From contig NZ_CP029462.1 of assembly GCF_003367905.1 (NCBI RefSeq), positions 1,240,001 through 1,304,000 on the forward strand: a stretch of 64,000 nucleotides of DNA, written 5' to 3'. This DNA is from Megasphaera stantonii (GTDB lineage Bacteria; Bacillota; Negativicutes; Veillonellales; Megasphaeraceae). A program made the translations under genes and the position numbers. Positions 10,626-20,275 of this stretch are shown piece by piece. The notes beneath the pieces were generated by a model. The model was not told the origin of the DNA and ran no database searches. It saw nothing but the letters and a program-made list of their open reading frames with translations. Numbering within the stretch: the first letter of the stretch is position 1; every line of letters begins with the position of its first letter.

Positions 10626-10722
10626 GGGGGAGTATGGGTTCTGGTGTGCCCTCTGGTCTTCAAAACCAGTATGAGGAGTTAAGAGCTTCTTAGGTAGGTT
10701 CGATTCCTACACTTTCCCGCCA
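10626..10722 (+). tRNA. selC: tRNA-Sec (anticodon TCA)
   Basis: A 97-base gene with encoded CCA. The acceptor stem has eight pairs (GGGGGAGT with ACTTTCCC), the anticodon arm CTGGT-CTTCAAA-ACCAG presents TCA at 10660-10662, the variable arm is long, and the T-loop reads GGTTCGATTCC. These are the hallmarks of bacterial selenocysteine tRNA. It lies next to the converging selA operon. Confidence 0.97.
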
Positions 10723-10852: not shown

Positions 10853-12256
10853 TTATCCTTCGGCTACGGCCTTGGCAATTTCCGTGCAGATCAGGGGAAA
10901 TTCGTCGTCCCGCAGCGTCCGTACGGACAGGCACAGCCAGTCTTGCTGCACTCTGGCGACAACGGGGACTTCGGCATGGCGCAGGCGGCGTTCTAATTCT
11001 GCCGCCGTCAGGCCTTCTGACGCGACGGCGGCGGCGTACCCCGGCAACGTATATTCCGGATAGGAACCGCCGCCGACCATGTCGCGGACCGGCACGGTCT
11101 GCACCTGCAGGGCCGCGTCGGCAGTCCGCAGCATTTGGGCCAGCACATCGGCTCGCCGCAGGCATTCCTTCTGGGTCCGCGCCAGCATCTGCAGCGCAGG
11201 AATAGACCGTATTGCCAGGTCTTCGTCCCGGTACAGCTGCAGCGTCGCCTCCAAGGCGGCCAGGGTCATCTTATCGACCCGCAGGGCCCGCAGCAGCTGG
11301 TGCTGTTTCATCGGCTCGATATACTCGGCCTTGCCGACGATAATGCCGGCCTGCGGCCCGCCGAGAAGCTTGTCGCCGCTGAACATGACGACATCGCAGC
11401 CTTGCTTCAGGACCTCCTTTACAGTCGGCTCGTAGGGCAGGCCGAAGCGGCGCATGTCGACGAATAATCCGCTGCCCAGGTCGTTGATGAGGGGCAGGCC
11501 CTTGGCGTGGGCCAGCTCGGCCAGCTCCTGGGCAGGCACGCTTTCAGAAAAGCCTATGATGCGGTAATTGCTCGTATGGACTTTCATAATCGCGCCGGTA
11601 CCTTCGCCGACGGCCCGGCTGTAGTCTGACAGGTGGGTCTTATTGGTCGTCCCGACTTCCCGTATCGTGCCGCCGCTGGCTTCGATGACGTCGGGAATGC
11701 GGAACAGGCCGCCGATTTCCACGAGTTCTCCCCGGGAAATCACGACTTCCTTCCCCTGCGTCATCGACGTCAGGGCCAGCAGCACGGCGGCGGCGTTGTT
11801 ATTGACGACGAGTACGTCTTCCGCCCCAGTCAGCTCTTTCAGCAGCGACTGCAGGTGGGCATAGCGGGAGCCGCGGCGCCCTTCGTCCAGATCGTATTCC
11901 AAGTTCGAGTACGACGCGGCGATTTCGCCTACGTGCCGTCCAATCTCCTCGCTCAGTACAGACCGGCCCAAATTCGTGTGAAGAATTGTCCCCGTAGCGT
12001 TGACGACTGTTTTCAGGCGCAGGGATTTCTGCCGGCGGAAATAGGCCAGCACCATGCCGTCCAGCTCGTCCTCTGCCGGTACGTCGCGGCGGCGTTCGGC
12101 CAAAATGTCCCGGCGCAGTCCGGCCAATACGTCCTGTACAGCTTGTTTTATCAGGCTGCGGGACAGGTTTTGTTCCCATTCGGCCAGCGCAGGCCGCTGC
12201 AGCAGTACGTCTACTTTGGGAAGCTGCCGCAGCAGCTGTCTTGTATCTTGTTTCAT
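10853..12256 (-). CDS. selA: L-seryl-tRNA(Sec) selenium transferase
   Basis: Converts seryl-tRNA(Sec) to selenocysteinyl-tRNA(Sec) with selenophosphate. The 467 residues match bacterial SelA. It begins with the N-terminal RQLLRQLPKVDVLLQRP domain. The core holds VVNATGTILHTNLGRS and the PLP-lysine motif MFSGDKLLGGPQAGIIVGK around 288-306. It follows selB by four bases, and together with tRNA-Sec, selB and selD it completes the Sec insertion pathway in this window. Last gene of its operon; a terminator follows. Confidence 0.97.
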   Translation of the reverse strand: MKQDTRQLLRQLPKVDVLLQRPALAEWEQNLSRSLIKQAVQDVLAGLRRDILAERRRDVPAEDELDGMVLAYFRRQKSLRLKTVVNATGTILHTNLGRSVLSEEIGRHVGEIAASYSNLEYDLDEGRRGSRYAHLQSLLKELTGAEDVLVVNNNAAAVLLALTSMTQGKEVVISRGELVEIGGLFRIPDVIEASGGTIREVGTTNKTHLSDYSRAVGEGTGAIMKVHTSNYRIIGFSESVPAQELAELAHAKGLPLINDLGSGLFVDMRRFGLPYEPTVKEVLKQGCDVVMFSGDKLLGGPQAGIIVGKAEYIEPMKQHQLLRALRVDKMTLAALEATLQLYRDEDLAIRSIPALQMLARTQKECLRRADVLAQMLRTADAALQVQTVPVRDMVGGGSYPEYTLPGYAAAVASEGLTAAELERRLRHAEVPVVARVQQDWLCLSVRTLRDDEFPLICTEIAKAVAEG

Positions 12257-12260
12257 TGCC

Positions 12261-14174
12261 TCACCTGCTTTCTATACAATCTGCGCCGTCGTCGAGGACT
12301 CGCCCTCCTTCGGCGCGCCGCGTCACGTGCTGTTCATCCATGTAATCCAGTAATTGAAGGGCCCCTTTGCGCCCGATACCTAAGAGATCGCGGAAGGCAG
12401 CCAGCTCAATGGGCCCCTTTTCCCGCACGTAGCGGCAGAGGCGGCGCACGGCATCGTCATAGGCCTGGCGCGCTACGGCGTACTCCGGCGATAAGATCAC
12501 AGCCGTCTTCCCCCGCATGGCTTCCAGCACGGCCCGGCCATCCGGCCAGGGAGCGATCAAATCGCTGATCTTTACAGGCGTATACCCCGACTGGATTAAG
12601 GCCGCCGTCATGGCGTCGCGGGCCTTTTTCTGCTCCGGCGTAAATACGACGCGGAACCGGCTGGCCGCTGCGACGGCATCCTCTATGCGGCAGCTCCCGT
12701 CTCCTTCCATGAGGCGCAGGATCTCGCCGGCTTCTTTTTCCGACAAGGAACCGCCCAAACGAGAGCGGAACTCGCCGAGGGGCATGCCCGGGCGCAGGGG
12801 ATATTCCTTGTGATAGGCCAGCAGGAGCTGCACGGCCCGGCCTTTAAGCTTTTGATACGCCTCCCGATGGATATAGCCGGCCGCCGTCTCGTACAGAACG
12901 CCCTCTTCCGAAAGGCGGGCTGCAGCTGCGTCCAGTACGGCGGCATCTGCTCCCAAGGCGGCCTGCACGTCGGCCTGACGGGCAAAGGATTTCGCCTTGT
13001 GGAGCAGGTAATCGCAGAGCCCTTCGTCGAGGCTGCCGCTGTCCTTCGCTTTTAAGCTGTCCAGCACGGCTTCCTTAAAGCGGCGGTGCTTGCGGGGATT
13101 AGCGTCCAGTACTTCGCCGCCGCCTAGGGTGCGCATGGGGGAAAAGGTCCGCAGGATAAATCGATCCCTTGCCTTGACGACGATTTCATCCCCTTCCAGC
13201 CGCAGCTGCACAAAGCCTTCCTGTCCGGGCAGAATCGACTCCACGCCCAGGGGAACAGCCCGAACCATGACTTCCTGCGTCCCGACGAGGAGACGCAGGC
13301 GATCCCACATCTGAATCAGACAATCTGCTCGCTTTAAGCAGGAAACCTTGGCGTCGATCATTCTCGTCGGCGTCAAATCGGCGGAAGCACACAGCACATT
13401 GCCGCGACGTACCTCATCCGTCCCGATGTTGGCCAGATTGAAGGCCGTCCGCTGGCCCGCCTCGGCCCGTCCGACGTTTTGCTCATGAATCTGTATATTC
13501 CGAACCCGCACGGCCCGCTTCTTCGGATACAAAAACAGCTCGTCGCCGACGGCCACAGCTCCGTCCAGCAGCGTCCCCGTCACGACGGTACCGAAGCCCT
13601 TTACGGAAAAGGCCCGGTCGATATTCAGGCGGGCCGCGCCGCCGGAGTACCGTTCCGACAGATCTTCCGTCATGGCCTGTATCTTGACGACGAGGTTCGA
13701 AAGGCCCCGTCCCGTAAGGGCGTCCGTTTCGACGATGTCAGCATTGGCAGCTGCTGTATCGGCCAGCTTGGCACGGATATCCTCCTTGACCAGTTCCAGC
13801 ATGTCCTCGTCGACCGTATCGGCCTTCGTAACGACGACGAGATACTTCTCAATTCCCAGAAGTGTCAAAATATCCATATGCTCGACCGTCTGGGGCATGA
13901 CGCCTTCATTGGCATCTACGACCAGCAGCACCATGCCCAAGCCGGGCAGGCCGGCGACCATATTTCGGATAAATCGCTCGTGTCCTGGAACGTCGACGAT
14001 GCCGGCGCGCGTGCCGTCGGGCAAATCCAAATAGGCGAAGCCCAGGTTAATCGTCAGGCCCCGCCGCTTTTCTTCCTTCGTCGTATCCGTATCGATACCG
14101 GTCAGGGCCTTTACCAGGGTCGTCTTGCCATGGTCTACGTGGCCGGCCGTCCCGATGACGACATGTCTTGCCAT
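12261..14174 (-). CDS. selB: selenocysteine-specific translation elongation factor
   Basis: GTPase that brings Sec-tRNA(Sec) to UGA codons carrying a SECIS hairpin. The N-terminal G domain shows [19 protein letters not shown] (8-26), [12 protein letters not shown] and VTKAD. Domains II-III follow, and the C-terminal 250 residues are the winged-helix repeats that bind SECIS RNA (including [20 protein letters not shown] near the end). Length 637 is normal. The start at 14174 directly abuts the DUF3343 stop, indicating tight coupling. Confidence 0.97.
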
Positions 14175-14444
14175 TTACGCACCGCCTCCCTGTTTTTCAT
14201 AAGACACCTTCAATCCGTCCCGCACGGCATGATACAAGCTCTCGCAGGAAAAGCCGCATTGCGCCAGCATCGCCGTCAGCGACCCTTCCTCCTCCAGGTC
14301 GTAGCGCAGGGAAAATCCGCAGCTGGCGTAAATTTTTCCCGGCGTCGGCACGATGCGGGCCTTTATCTGACGCCGCTTAGCTTCCGCCTCGGCCTGCATC
14401 GCGTCCTTCGTATTGTAAAACAAAGCGATGCCATACGTTTCCAT
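14175..14444 (-). CDS. DUF3343 protein, putative Se/S carrier-like
   Basis: An 89-residue protein of the DUF3343 type, starting [18 protein letters not shown] and containing [16 protein letters not shown] with a conserved Cys-Gly, then a second Cys pair region [10 protein letters not shown]. Members are commonly found in Firmicute selenium loci (known context) and have been proposed as sulfur/selenium carriers; no activity is shown. It sits between yedF and selB with eight and zero bases of spacing, supporting a selenium-linked role here. Confidence 0.8.
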
Positions 14445-14452
14445 AGGCCCTC

Positions 14453-15043
14453 CTACGGCTTGACAATACGGTCGGCCGTCCGCATCAATTCGACGATGCG
14501 GTACATATTCGTGATTTCGCCGACAGCGACTTTATCCGTCAGCCCGTAGAAATTGAGGCAGGCGCCGCAGGCGTAAATCGGCACGCCCATCTGCGCCAGC
14601 TTCTGCAAATCTTCCAGCGATTCCGAGCCTTCCGTTACCAGGGGCACGCCGCCGTTGTAAAAGACGACGCACTGAGGCAGGACGTCCTGCTCCGTCAGGG
14701 TATACAGGAAGGTCTTGAGCAGGCTTTTGCCGAAAGCCTCGTCGCCGACGCCCATGTACGGCGAATTGACGACGACGATATACGAATCGACGGCCTTCGC
14801 CATTTCGGCTGCTGGAGACGAGACCGCCGCCTGCCCGTTCTTGGCGATGACGACGACGTAGCGATCCGGCGATTCTTCCGTCAGCGTATACGTGCAGCCC
14901 AGCTGATCGGCCAGGCGCTTTAAGTTTTCCGTCGCGATTTTATTATCGACAATCGTCTCCACTACGTCGTGTTCCTTCAGTGCTTTATGGGTTTGAATTA
15001 CGGGAAGGGGGCAGGCCTTGCCCGTCATATCGATTTTAAACAT
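14453..15043 (-). CDS. yedF: selenium-metabolism sulfurtransferase-like protein YedF
   Basis: A 196-residue protein. Residues 1-70 are a TusA/SirA-like domain with the conserved Cys in MTGKACPLPVIQTHKAL; residues 95-190 are a DsrE-like domain (VVNSPYMGVGDEAFGKSLLK, then VFYNGGVPLVTEGS and YACGACLNFYGL). This fusion is the selenium-associated YedF subfamily. It probably handles activated sulfur or selenium between the cysteine desulfurase upstream and SelD/SelA (inference from context). 52 bases separate it from the desulfurase gene. Confidence 0.9.
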   Translation of the reverse strand: MFKIDMTGKACPLPVIQTHKALKEHDVVETIVDNKIATENLKRLADQLGCTYTLTEESPDRYVVVIAKNGQAAVSSPAAEMAKAVDSYIVVVNSPYMGVGDEAFGKSLLKTFLYTLTEQDVLPQCVVFYNGGVPLVTEGSESLEDLQKLAQMGVPIYACGACLNFYGLTDKVAVGEITNMYRIVELMRTADRIVKP

Positions 15044-15095: not shown

Positions 15096-16250
15096 TCACG
15101 TCTCCATGGCGGCAATATCCCGCAGGGCCCGCAGGGCCGCCGCGACGTCGTCCTCCGTCGTAAACCGGGAAAAGGAAAAGCGCACGGCGCCGCGCCGCTC
15201 CGTATGGAGCTCTTCGTGCATAAGCGGGGCGCAGTGAAATCCAGACCGCGTCGCCATGCCGTATTGATCCCATAAGATATCGCTGACCAAGGCCGAATCG
15301 GCGTCGCCGACATTCAGGGCGTATACGCCGACGCGAGGGCTGGAAAAGTCGCCGTACAGCGTGATGTTCGGCAGCTCCCGAACCCCTTCCGTAAAGATGC
15401 GCCCCAACGCCTCCTGATGGCGGACTGCCGCCTCCAGGCCTTCGTCAAGCAGCACCTGCACGCCTGCAGCCAGTCCGGCGATACCGGCAACGTTGGCCGT
15501 GCCCGCCTCGAATACACCCGGAATATCCCGCGGCTGTTCGTGGTCAAAGGAATGGACGCCGTCGCCGCCCGTAATATACGGCCGCACCTCCGTATCCTTT
15601 CGGATGCAGACGCCGCCCGTTCCTCCCGGCCCATAGAGTGATTTATGGCCCGTAAAGCACAGGGCCGTGACGACGCCGTCAGACAAGTCGATAGGATAGG
15701 CCCCTGCCGATTGGGACGCATCGACGACGAGCATCAGGGAATGCTTGCGGCAGAAAGCCTTGACGCGCTCCAAATCCACGACGTTGCCCGTCACGTTCGA
15801 TGCATGGTTGCACACGACGGCCTTCGTCGACGGCCGCAGCTTCTGTTCCAGTTCGCCGTACTGCAGCGCGCCCGTACCGGCTTCCGAGCCTATAAAATCG
15901 ACGGCCGTTCCCTGCTGCTCCAGCTGATACAGGGGCCGCAGGACGGCGTTGTGTTCCCATGTCGTCGTCAGGACGTGATCACCCGCTCCGAGCAGCCCTT
16001 TCAGCACCATGTTGAGAGCCGCCGTGGAATTATGCGTAAAGGCCACGTCGTACGCCTCGCCGGCATGAAACAGCGTCTTAATCAATTCCTTCGCCTGCAG
16101 CACTAACCCGTAGGCTCGCAGCGAATAGGCGTGGGCGCCCCGGGAAGGATTGCCCAGCAGGCCGCCGCTGAGGGCGTCGTACACGGCCTGGGCCACGGCC
16201 TGCGGCTTCTGCGCCGTCGTCGCGGCGTTGTCAAAGTAATACATGTCCAT
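15096..16250 (-). CDS. cysteine desulfurase family protein (class V aminotransferase fold)
   Basis: A 384-residue PLP enzyme, first gene of the selenium operon. It has the start MYYFDNAATTAQKPQAV, the PLP-lysine motif LCFTGHKSLYGPGGTGG around 205-221 and a C-terminal catalytic loop RSGFHCAPLMHEE. This is the SufS/CsdB-like subgroup often found beside selD and yedF. It may release Se from selenocysteine or S from cysteine for the pathway (inference). No scaffold iscU/sufU is nearby, which argues against a dedicated Fe-S role. Confidence 0.88.
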   Translation of the reverse strand: MDMYYFDNAATTAQKPQAVAQAVYDALSGGLLGNPSRGAHAYSLRAYGLVLQAKELIKTLFHAGEAYDVAFTHNSTAALNMVLKGLLGAGDHVLTTTWEHNAVLRPLYQLEQQGTAVDFIGSEAGTGALQYGELEQKLRPSTKAVVCNHASNVTGNVVDLERVKAFCRKHSLMLVVDASQSAGAYPIDLSDGVVTALCFTGHKSLYGPGGTGGVCIRKDTEVRPYITGGDGVHSFDHEQPRDIPGVFEAGTANVAGIAGLAAGVQVLLDEGLEAAVRHQEALGRIFTEGVRELPNITLYGDFSSPRVGVYALNVGDADSALVSDILWDQYGMATRSGFHCAPLMHEELHTERRGAVRFSFSRFTTEDDVAAALRALRDIAAMET

Positions 16251-17801: not shown

Positions 17802-18839
17802 TTATTCAACGACGAGCGCGCCTTCTTCGCGCTGCGCCGCGTAGCCTACGATTTCCGCGCAGGGAATCGCAGCCTGCAATTCTTGCAGCAAGGCCATGCA
17901 GTCCCGTTCCGAGACGGCGATGAGCAATCCTCCCGACGTCTGCGGGTCATACAGGATATCCATCATAGCCCGGCCGATGTCGCCCCTGACGATGACCTGC
18001 CCGTCCGTATAAGCCCGGTTGCGGTATGCGCCGGCGGGAATAAAGCCCATGTCGGCCATCTCGCAGGCTTCACCGTAATAGGGAACGCTTCCCGCCATGA
18101 CGTGCAGCGTAAGGCCGCTTCCCCGGGCCATTTCAAAGGCGTGGCCCAAAAAGCCGAAGCCCGTCACGTCGGTGCAGCCGCCGACGTCGTAGCGGACCAT
18201 GATATCCCTGGCCGCCTTGTTGAGCTGCGCCATTTGGCTGTGCAGCTCGCGCAGCAGGCCTTCCTCCACCATATCTCCCTGGGCCGCCGTCATGAGGATG
18301 CCTACGCCTAAGGGCTTGGTCAAAATCAATACGTCGCCTTCGCGGGCCGACGAATTGCGCAGGAGCTTCTGCGGATGGACGAAGCCCGTCACAGACAGGC
18401 CGTACTTAGGCTCCTTGTCTTCTATGGTATGGCCGCCTGTAATGAGGACGCCCGCTTCATAGGCCTTATCATAGCCGCCCTGCAGGATAGCCCGGACGGC
18501 ATCCTTTCCCATCTGCGAATTGATGCACATGACGTTCATAGCCAGCTTCGGCTCGCCGCCCATGGCATACACATCGCTCAGGGCGTTGGCCGCCGCAATT
18601 TGTCCAAATAAGAACGGGTCGTCGACGATGGGCGGAAAGAAATCGACGGTCTGCACCAAGGCCAATTCCTCGCTGACGACGTATACCGACGCGTCGTCGC
18701 TCTTATCGTAGCCGACGATCAGCCGTTCGTCATATCTTGTTGGAATACCTTCCAACAGCTGCGCCAGTTCCCCGGCGCCAATCTTAGCACCTCACCCCGA
18801 GCAGGACGCCATTTGAGTCAATTTGATCCTTTCATCCAT
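17802..18839 (-). CDS. selD: selenide, water dikinase; itself a selenoprotein (Sec16 at UGA 18794-18792)
   Basis: Makes selenophosphate from selenide and ATP. A simple reading frame starts only at 18755, but the true start is the ATG at 18839, which has GGGAGGTG seven bases upstream. From there the frame reads MDERIKLTQMASCSG, then UGA, then GAKIGAGELAQLL. This puts the UGA at the catalytic Cys/Sec position of the family motif CSGU/CGAKI. A 7-bp hairpin (18761-18778) follows at the spacing of a bacterial SECIS. The rest carries LVQTVDFFPPIVDDPF, ALSDVYAMGG and GGHTIEDKEPKYGL, and the C-terminal DPQTSGGLLIAV. Full length is 345 residues. It lies 47 bases after the COG2509 flavoprotein gene. 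Confidence 0.95.
18761..18778 (-). promoter_or_regulatory. bacterial SECIS hairpin of selD
   Basis: In the mRNA GCGCCGG pairs with CTGGCGC (one G-U) around a GGAA loop. The stem begins 13 bases after the UGA at 18794-18792, and the loop guanines fall about 21 bases after it, within the range seen for bacterial SECIS elements. Confidence 0.8.
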
Positions 18840-18886
18840 AGCCGGCACCTCCCTTCTTCAGCTTCCATATCCCTACAGGATACGGT

Positions 18887-20275
18887 TTACCGGCCTTCCC
18901 GTTCCAGGATTTCCTTGCCGACAGTCACGCCGGCCGCCGAGGCCTGCACCAGCCCCCGCGTAATGCCGGCGCCGTCGCCGATGGCAAAGAAATTGGGAAT
19001 CTTCGTTTCCAATTTGTGATTCAGTTCCAGCCGGTTGGAATAAAATTTAACTTCCACGCCGTACAGCAGCGTATGGCGCGAATTGGCACCGGGAGCCACC
19101 TTGTCCAGCGCCTCGAGCATTTCCTTGATGTCCTGCAGGTGGCGGTACGGCAGGACGAGGGACAAGTCGCCCGGCGTCGCATCAGGCATCGTCGGCCGCA
19201 CGAGGCCCCGCAGAATGCGCTCCGGCGTCGAACGGCGGCCGTCGAGAAGATCTCCCAGCCGCTGGACAATGACGCCGCCGCCGAGGATATTGGCCAAATT
19301 GGCGATGTATTTGCCGTATTTGATCGGCTCGTGGAAGGGCTCGGTGAACTTCTTCGACACGAGGATGGCAAAGTTCGTGTTTTCGCTGCGCTTGTGAGCA
19401 TAGCTGTGGCCGTTGACCGTCAAGAGGCCGTCGTTGTTTTCTTCTACGACGAAGCCATAGGGATTCATGCAGAAGGTACGAATCCTATCGTCGAAGGACT
19501 TGCTGAAATAGATGAGCTTCGATTCGTACACTATGTCGGTAATGGTCTCTAAAATTTCTGCCGGCATTTCTACGCGCACACCGATATCGACGGCGTTGGA
19601 CGTCAGCTTGAGGCCCAGCTTGTCTACTTCGCCGACAAACCATTCCGAGCCTTCCCGGCCCGGCGCGCAGACCAGGTAGCGGCAGGCATACAGCTGATCT
19701 GCTATGATAACGCCCCGCACCTGCCCGTCTTCCACGACGATATGGTCTACGGCCGTATCGGCCATGATGTCGATCTTGCCGTCGAGGAAGTCGCGCATAT
19801 TCGTCAGTATCTGGGCGTTTACATCCGTGCCGAGGTGGCGTATCCGCGCCGGAATAAGCCGTAAATCAGCCGCCGCGGCCTTGCGCTGCATCTGGCGGAT
19901 GCACTCCTTATTTTCGTCGCCGTATACCTTGCGGTCTGCGCCGCCGAAGCGGCAGTATACGTCGTCGACATAGGCTATTTTTTCCATGAGCTCGGCCTTG
20001 GACATGTAGTCGTCCAAATTGCCGCCGTATTCCGTCGTCAGCGTCAACTTGCCGTCGCTGAAGGCGCCGGCGCCGCCCCAGCCGCACACGACGTTGCGGA
20101 CCTTATCCTTAGGCAGGGCGTTTTTATTGCGGCTCGTCGCAATGCGCTCGCGAATGTCCTGCCCCTTTTCCACGATGAGAATACTCAGGCCCGTATCGGC
20201 CAGCTCCAGAGCCGTAAAAATACCGGCCGGCCCGGCCCCGATAATGATGACGTCATAGGTTTTTACAGCGTTCAT
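18887..20275 (-). CDS. FAD-dependent dehydrogenase of the COG2509 type
   Basis: A 462-residue flavoprotein. The N terminus has the dinucleotide fold YDVIIIGAGPAGIFTALELA (9-28), then CGWGGAGAFSDGKLTL, and the C terminus NFFAIGDGAGITRGLVQAS, the second FAD contact. This uncharacterised family is widespread in anaerobes. Immediate upstream position to selD in the same direction (47 bases) suggests cotranscription and possibly a selenium-related redox role (inference only). Start ATG at 20275 with AAAGGAGAGA upstream. Confidence 0.85.
   Translation of the reverse strand: MNAVKTYDVIIIGAGPAGIFTALELADTGLSILIVEKGQDIRERIATSRNKNALPKDKVRNVVCGWGGAGAFSDGKLTLTTEYGGNLDDYMSKAELMEKIAYVDDVYCRFGGADRKVYGDENKECIRQMQRKAAAADLRLIPARIRHLGTDVNAQILTNMRDFLDGKIDIMADTAVDHIVVEDGQVRGVIIADQLYACRYLVCAPGREGSEWFVGEVDKLGLKLTSNAVDIGVRVEMPAEILETITDIVYESKLIYFSKSFDDRIRTFCMNPYGFVVEENNDGLLTVNGHSYAHKRSENTNFAILVSKKFTEPFHEPIKYGKYIANLANILGGGVIVQRLGDLLDGRRSTPERILRGLVRPTMPDATPGDLSLVLPYRHLQDIKEMLEALDKVAPGANSRHTLLYGVEVKFYSNRLELNHKLETKIPNFFAIGDGAGITRGLVQASAAGVTVGKEILEREGR

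Follow-up and report, generated by a model that had tools for sequence, protein, structure and literature searches.

Our analysis indicates that the selenide, water dikinase SelD of Megasphaera stantonii is very probably a selenocysteine (Sec)-containing selenophosphate synthetase, a reading to which we assign a probability of roughly 95%. The window studied here is a 64,000-nucleotide stretch of the M. stantonii genome, for which a preliminary description had proposed SelD as a UGA-encoded selenoprotein. This proposal is supported by a TGA conserved in a single alignment column, by its catalytic position, by a downstream hairpin that agrees with published bSECIS criteria, by the Sec machinery in the same window, and by the presence of Cys at this position in the nearest relatives. 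As a selenoprotein this SelD is ordinary; a plain open reading frame (ORF) call shortens the protein and drops its active site.

An in-frame UGA at the catalytic position of selD

The preliminary description started selD at an ATG at 18839 and placed an in-frame UGA at codon 16 within CSG-U-GAKIG, and the gene is indeed laid out in this way:

17802–18839, minus strand: selD, selenide, water dikinase; 345 codons with one in-frame TGA and a TAA stop; TIGR00476
18792–18794, minus strand: TGA codon 16, putative Sec codon; aligns with E. coli SelD Cys17
18848–18853, minus strand: GGGAGG, Shine-Dalgarno-like motif 8 nt before the ATG at 18839

Translation from 18839 to 17802 on the minus strand, with TGA read as U, yields 345 residues beginning MDERIKLTQMASCSGUGAKIG, in which the sole TGA gives U16. 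The protein scores 382.6 bits against the NCBIfam equivalog model TIGR00476 (cut-off 125). In an alignment to a solved SelD chain (PDB 3u0o), U16 falls over Cys17 and K19 over Lys20, the two residues that form the catalytic pair in the E. coli enzyme, in line with the earlier assignment of the UGA to the catalytic position. When the window was scanned for TGA codons with a long open frame behind them, 59 cases came up; among the 46 listed, a redox-type motif was recognised by eye in selD only.

Ordinary gene calling had been predicted to start this gene at 18755 and to lose the active site. A mechanical ORF list does exactly this: if the UGA is not read through, the first available start is TTG 18755, giving 317 amino acids that lack both U16 and K19. 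Taken at face value, such an ORF would mean that translation begins downstream of the UGA, that the TGA is a genuine stop, and that the product is a truncated SelD without Sec. A ribosome-binding motif is present at the long start only, none being found upstream of TTG 18755, and protein-level conservation extends through the region ahead of 18755 in 12/12 genus members. For these reasons the truncated start was rejected as highly improbable.

On the same strand, 47 bp upstream of selD, the window also encodes a FAD-dependent oxidoreductase (FAD-depend_C family, 18887–20275, minus strand).

Sec machinery around selD and a proposed mechanism

Genes for selA, selB, tRNA-Sec and yedF had been placed in the same window as selD, and each passes its NCBIfam cut-off or Rfam gathering threshold:

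10626–10722, plus strand: selC, tRNA-Sec with anticodon TCA; Rfam RF01852, 69.2 bits (gathering 47)
10853–12256, minus strand: selA, Sec synthase; TIGR00474, 602.1 bits (cut-off 267.9)
12261–14174, minus strand: selB, Sec-specific elongation factor; TIGR00475, 355.5 bits (cut-off 242.25)
14175–14444, minus strand: DUF3343, Pfam Se_S_carrier; PF11823, 64.9 bits (cut-off 25)
14453–15043, minus strand: yedF, selenium metabolism protein; TIGR03527, 210.3 bits (cut-off 110)
15096–16250, minus strand: class-V aminotransferase/cysteine desulfurase family protein; best models TIGR01977 and SclA selenocysteine lyase, both below cut-off

The product of the last of these genes is a possible selenium donor. 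Alongside the Se_S_carrier and cysteine desulfurase-like genes, purB also lies between selB and selD. In the same genome, the conserved Sec site of FdhA (HCARV-U-HAPS) is a TGA codon, and fdhA clusters with genes for MobA/MobB, Fe-S, MoeA, FdhD and YqeB proteins. This yqeB, whose product marks selenium-dependent molybdenum hydroxylases, adjoins fdhD, moeA and fdhA (L162 8973–10722, G000:C1 near 1002000). A search of the genome for a second SelD found none, the sole other match being partial (28% identical, E 3e-7), and selenouridine synthase was found in none of 15 genus genomes.

From the conservation of the TGA, of its column and of the hairpin, and from the machinery, all of them read from sequence, we infer Sec insertion, catalysis and an autocatalytic dependence. 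SelB with Sec-tRNA(Sec), steered by a SECIS hairpin just after UGA-16, would put Sec into the catalytic position, and this Sec16 would handle selenide in ATP-dependent selenophosphate synthesis. The selenophosphate would be used by SelA to make Sec-tRNA(Sec) and, since SelA needs it for this step, Sec-SelD would depend on its own product. The destinations of selenium would include at least Sec-SelD and the UGA-containing formate dehydrogenase.

A complete hairpin stem in the Sec genes

A 7-bp hairpin with a GGAA loop had been described 13 bases past the UGA, and RNA folding reproduces it:

18761–18778, minus strand: SECIS upper stem-loop; 7 bp, GGAA loop, loop starting 20 nt after the UGA
18752–18787, minus strand: weaker lower helix around the SECIS stem, from RNA folding; 4 pairs (18787–18784 with 18755–18752), 89% of cells paired in 7 sequences

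The upper stem pairs GCGCCGG with CUGGCGC (18778–18772 with 18767–18761), leaving 13 nt between the UGA and the stem. According to a 2026 review, a bSECIS has a loop of 3–9 nt, a stem of 4–16 bp, a G at loop position 1 or 2, a UGA-to-loop distance of 16–37 nt and a minimum free energy of −7.5 kcal/mol or lower. The hairpin of the window's selD has a 4-nt loop with G as its first base, 7 bp, a distance of 20 nt and an energy of −17 kcal/mol, and all 12 Sec-selD genes of the genus agree with the same criteria, with a spacing of 19–20 nt. An Rfam search gave no match to the Rfam SECIS families.

Hairpin stability alone was rejected as proof of a SECIS. The hairpin of the window folds at −17.0 kcal/mol, but its z score is only −1.74, with 16 of 200 dinucleotide shuffles folding as well. 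As a further control, each gene was recoded synonymously 300 times, allowing two registers one base apart; relative to these recodings, the hairpin energy fell below 0.05 in none of the 12 Sec genes. The hairpin is partly imposed by the encoded protein sequence: synonymous recodings of the Sec genes are expected to form a mean of 5.6 of 7 pairs, and all 7 are reached in 2–22% of recodings per gene (19% for the window's own selD). The striking feature of the Sec genes, whose hairpin energy is not exceptional, is the complete 7-bp stem, in which all pairs are present in 12/12 Sec genes versus 12/73 Cys relatives, the 12 Sec genes being related and so not 12 independent trials. The 73 Cys relatives form 5.53 pairs on average, against 5.39 expected from recoding.

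Seven genes share one register; in these, a pair joining two third-codon positions reads UA five times and CG twice. This covariation is weak, because 255 of 500 shuffles of the 7 sequences also yield one double-changed pair; the covariation score itself was reached by 18 of 500.

Sec-SelD coincides with SelB within Megasphaera

Across 15 genus genomes, a TGA-containing SelD occurs in 12, which are exactly the 12 with SelB over the cut-off, and the TGA falls in the same alignment column in all of them. This distribution bears on a concern already raised in the preliminary description, that the TGA might be a sequencing error standing for TGC or TGT, and on the related possibility of a pseudogene. 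TGA is a single base away from a Cys codon; against an error, the same TGA is common to 12 genomes, the frame stays open, and the SECIS stem is kept at synonymous sites. An error shared by 12 genomes is very unlikely, indeed barely credible, and was rejected.

Two genomes of the genus show Cys-type SelD or SelD-like genes. G001, which has yqeB but lacks both an FdhA match and SelB over the cut-off, contains a Cys-type SelD-like gene (L160 1958–2981) that is frame-shifted over two overlapping frames. G011 (M. cerevisiae) has two SelDs and two SelBs over the cut-off; its second SelD contains Cys (CGGCNAK; L161 1324–2337), adjoins yedF, DUF3343, selB and selA, and lies on the contig that carries the Sec-SelD, GrdA and one GrdB gene.

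Formate dehydrogenase follows a different pattern. FdhA contains a TGA in eight genus genomes, with one TGA and one Cys FdhA in G011, and no FdhA match was found in G001, G002, G008 and G010 among the 15 genomes searched. Three genomes, G009 (L033), G012 (L031) and G013 (L032), have an FdhA with a Cys codon (TGC/TGT) yet a TGA-SelD. Among the families tested (FdhA, GrdA, GrdB/PrdB (PF07355), HesB-type and AhpC/TSA), SelD may be the only selenoprotein left in G009 and G013; if so, the Sec machinery there would serve mainly its own selenium-activating enzyme. Whether SelD by itself suffices to maintain the Sec trait could be tested in species that combine Sec-SelD with Cys-FdhA. In G009, the Cys-type FdhA has an in-frame TAA about 503 codons past the start of the profile match, which reflects a sequencing error or a gene that is no longer intact.

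SelD as the single selenoprotein has been described for several YbbB-containing species in the literature consulted here, which includes PMC5029168. A study of vaginal Megasphaera reported that genes for selenocysteine production, conserved across other Megasphaera, are missing from two phylotypes (PMC8767330).

SelD relatives outside the genus

Sec-SelD is common in the phylum: in a sample of 398 genomes, 27 loci outside the genus were retained, of which 26 have one TGA in SelD, at 49–53% identity. Outside the genus but within its class, the six nearest genomes encode SelDs that are 58–65% identical, with Cys and no internal stop. Of the best 80 of at least 556 confirmed candidates from a genome collection, 75 lie outside the genus, and all 75 have Cys in the U16 column. 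These 75 comprise 73 of 78 scored loci, plus L093 and L141 by inspection; the other five of the 78 have TGA, and all belong to Megasphaera or Colibacter.

Within flanks of up to 3 kb, yqeB accompanies 53 of the 75 Cys loci. A survey of 21 Cys-SelD genomes found SelB over the cut-off in two, the sources of L085 and L086; the set was picked by hand and comprised 18 genomes of the Cys clade, two long-branch members and one outgroup, some of them drafts or metagenome-assembled genomes (MAGs). Beside the six Cys rows nearest to Megasphaera (L085, L086, L093, L169, L196 and L197) yqeB was absent from the DNA searched, in some cases only 1.5 kb or a short contig, which speaks against a direct ancestor whose selD adjoined yqeB. 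L086 (3001–6122), from a rumen Oscillospiraceae MAG and close to Megasphaera on the tree, has a Cys-SelD followed directly by SelB (40% identical).

Two histories for the Megasphaera Sec-SelD

To place the Megasphaera proteins, trees were built with the residue at the Sec/Cys column masked with X. The Megasphaera Sec-SelDs branch inside the Cys-SelD clade with 94–95% bootstrap support (paired values of 95/94 with 61 rows and 94/81 with 40 rows), in trees whose rows were chosen by hand and in which L204 is a long branch. A quick 98-row tree, for which a similarity filter kept 40 of the 73 Cys rows and from which L184, L187 and L212 (all TGA) were left out, gives the same nesting (SH-aLRT 93%). 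In the 40-row set, the Cys rows stay together as one side in 2% of 200 bootstrap trees. Trees that join Megasphaera to 18 other Sec-SelDs are rejected (p 4e-6).

This nesting within the Cys clade, apart from the common Sec-SelDs of the phylum, suggests a Cys-to-Sec conversion, in which a Cys-SelD lineage, with most of the hairpin already present in its coding sequence, gained Sec and came to serve the Sec system. We give this history even odds or slightly better. On the two careful trees it takes two changes, as opposed to three to four independent losses if the ancestor of the clade had Sec, and the scarcity of SelB among the surveyed Cys-SelD genomes points the same way, although several of these are drafts or MAGs. 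The position of the hairpin is a further argument: its loop lies at base 22–23 in 12/12 Megasphaera genes and at 18–20 in 18/29 other Sec-SelDs, while in 31/80 Cys relatives the strongest potential stem has a 4-nt loop at base 23, as in 7/12 Megasphaera genes. Against this, the loop is at base 23 in 5/29 other Sec-SelDs and at base 20 in 13/80 Cys relatives, and the six nearest Cys rows have no yqeB in the DNA examined.

Alternatively, the ancestor of the clade had Sec, Megasphaera retained it, and the Cys relatives lost Sec as SelB was lost, a history that we hold tentatively, at somewhat below even odds. Here the number of losses depends on the tree, a single one sufficing if Megasphaera is the sister of the Cys relatives. 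Such an arrangement, with monophyletic Cys rows and Megasphaera outside, is retained by the AU test (p 0.199, and 0.228 in the 40-row set), which speaks for retention and against conversion, and Sec-to-Cys is the documented direction of change for SelD (PMC1794560; PMC13188914). The nested position in the best trees argues against retention, as does the lack of a mean SECIS remnant in the 73 Cys genes, although an old loss would erase any remnant.

Taken together, the evidence favours, without proving, a Cys-to-Sec conversion in the Megasphaera lineage. Under conversion, a SelD of the Cys clade, whose wider members mostly lie beside yqeB and whose surveyed genomes mostly lack SelB, would have been recruited to a Sec operon, and its codon 16 would have become UGA. 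This change would have been eased because conserved codons downstream already made most of the SECIS hairpin at a workable distance.

Comparison with known selenophosphate synthetases

Sec-SelD is ranked second in size among prokaryotic selenoprotein families (PMC13188914). It was represented by 38 sequences in 2006 (PMC1794560), and in 2015 by 19% of the SelDs in a set of 223 genomes, with Sec always at the same position (PMC4561486). With Sec-SelD already in print, its finding here is not in itself new. The history of the Megasphaera protein may be: in the text available to us on Megasphaera selenocysteine, on Cys-to-Sec changes in SelD and on Negativicutes selenoproteins, this case was not found, a mention in the 2015 supplement being possible. 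Zhang et al. saw no Cys-to-Sec event in SelD in 2006 (PMC1794560), and Mariotti et al. presented Pasteurellales in 2015 as the first clearly documented one (PMC4561486). A second such case, if true, with Cys relatives that nearly form the hairpin, would allow base-by-base tests of how an existing gene acquires Sec.

The Megasphaera SelD shares with bacterial Sec-SelD/SPS2 the enzyme family, the UGA at the catalytic column, a bSECIS directly downstream and a Sec operon. It differs from other Sec-SelDs in that it is at most 53% identical to those compared, against 56–65% to the nearest Cys-SelDs, and in that its hairpin usually lies a few bases further from the UGA. Cys-SelD beside yqeB has been associated with the selenium-dependent molybdenum hydroxylase trait (Haft and Self 2008, PMC2276186). 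Members of that wider clade are relatives of the Megasphaera protein, and yqeB also occurs in the M. stantonii genome, beside fdhD; unlike them, Megasphaera has Sec and a full Sec operon, and its selD does not lie beside yqeB. The Pasteurellales SelD offers a published parallel as a Cys-to-Sec conversion (PMC4561486), but it belongs to another phylum, and the Megasphaera conversion, if real, would be a separate event.
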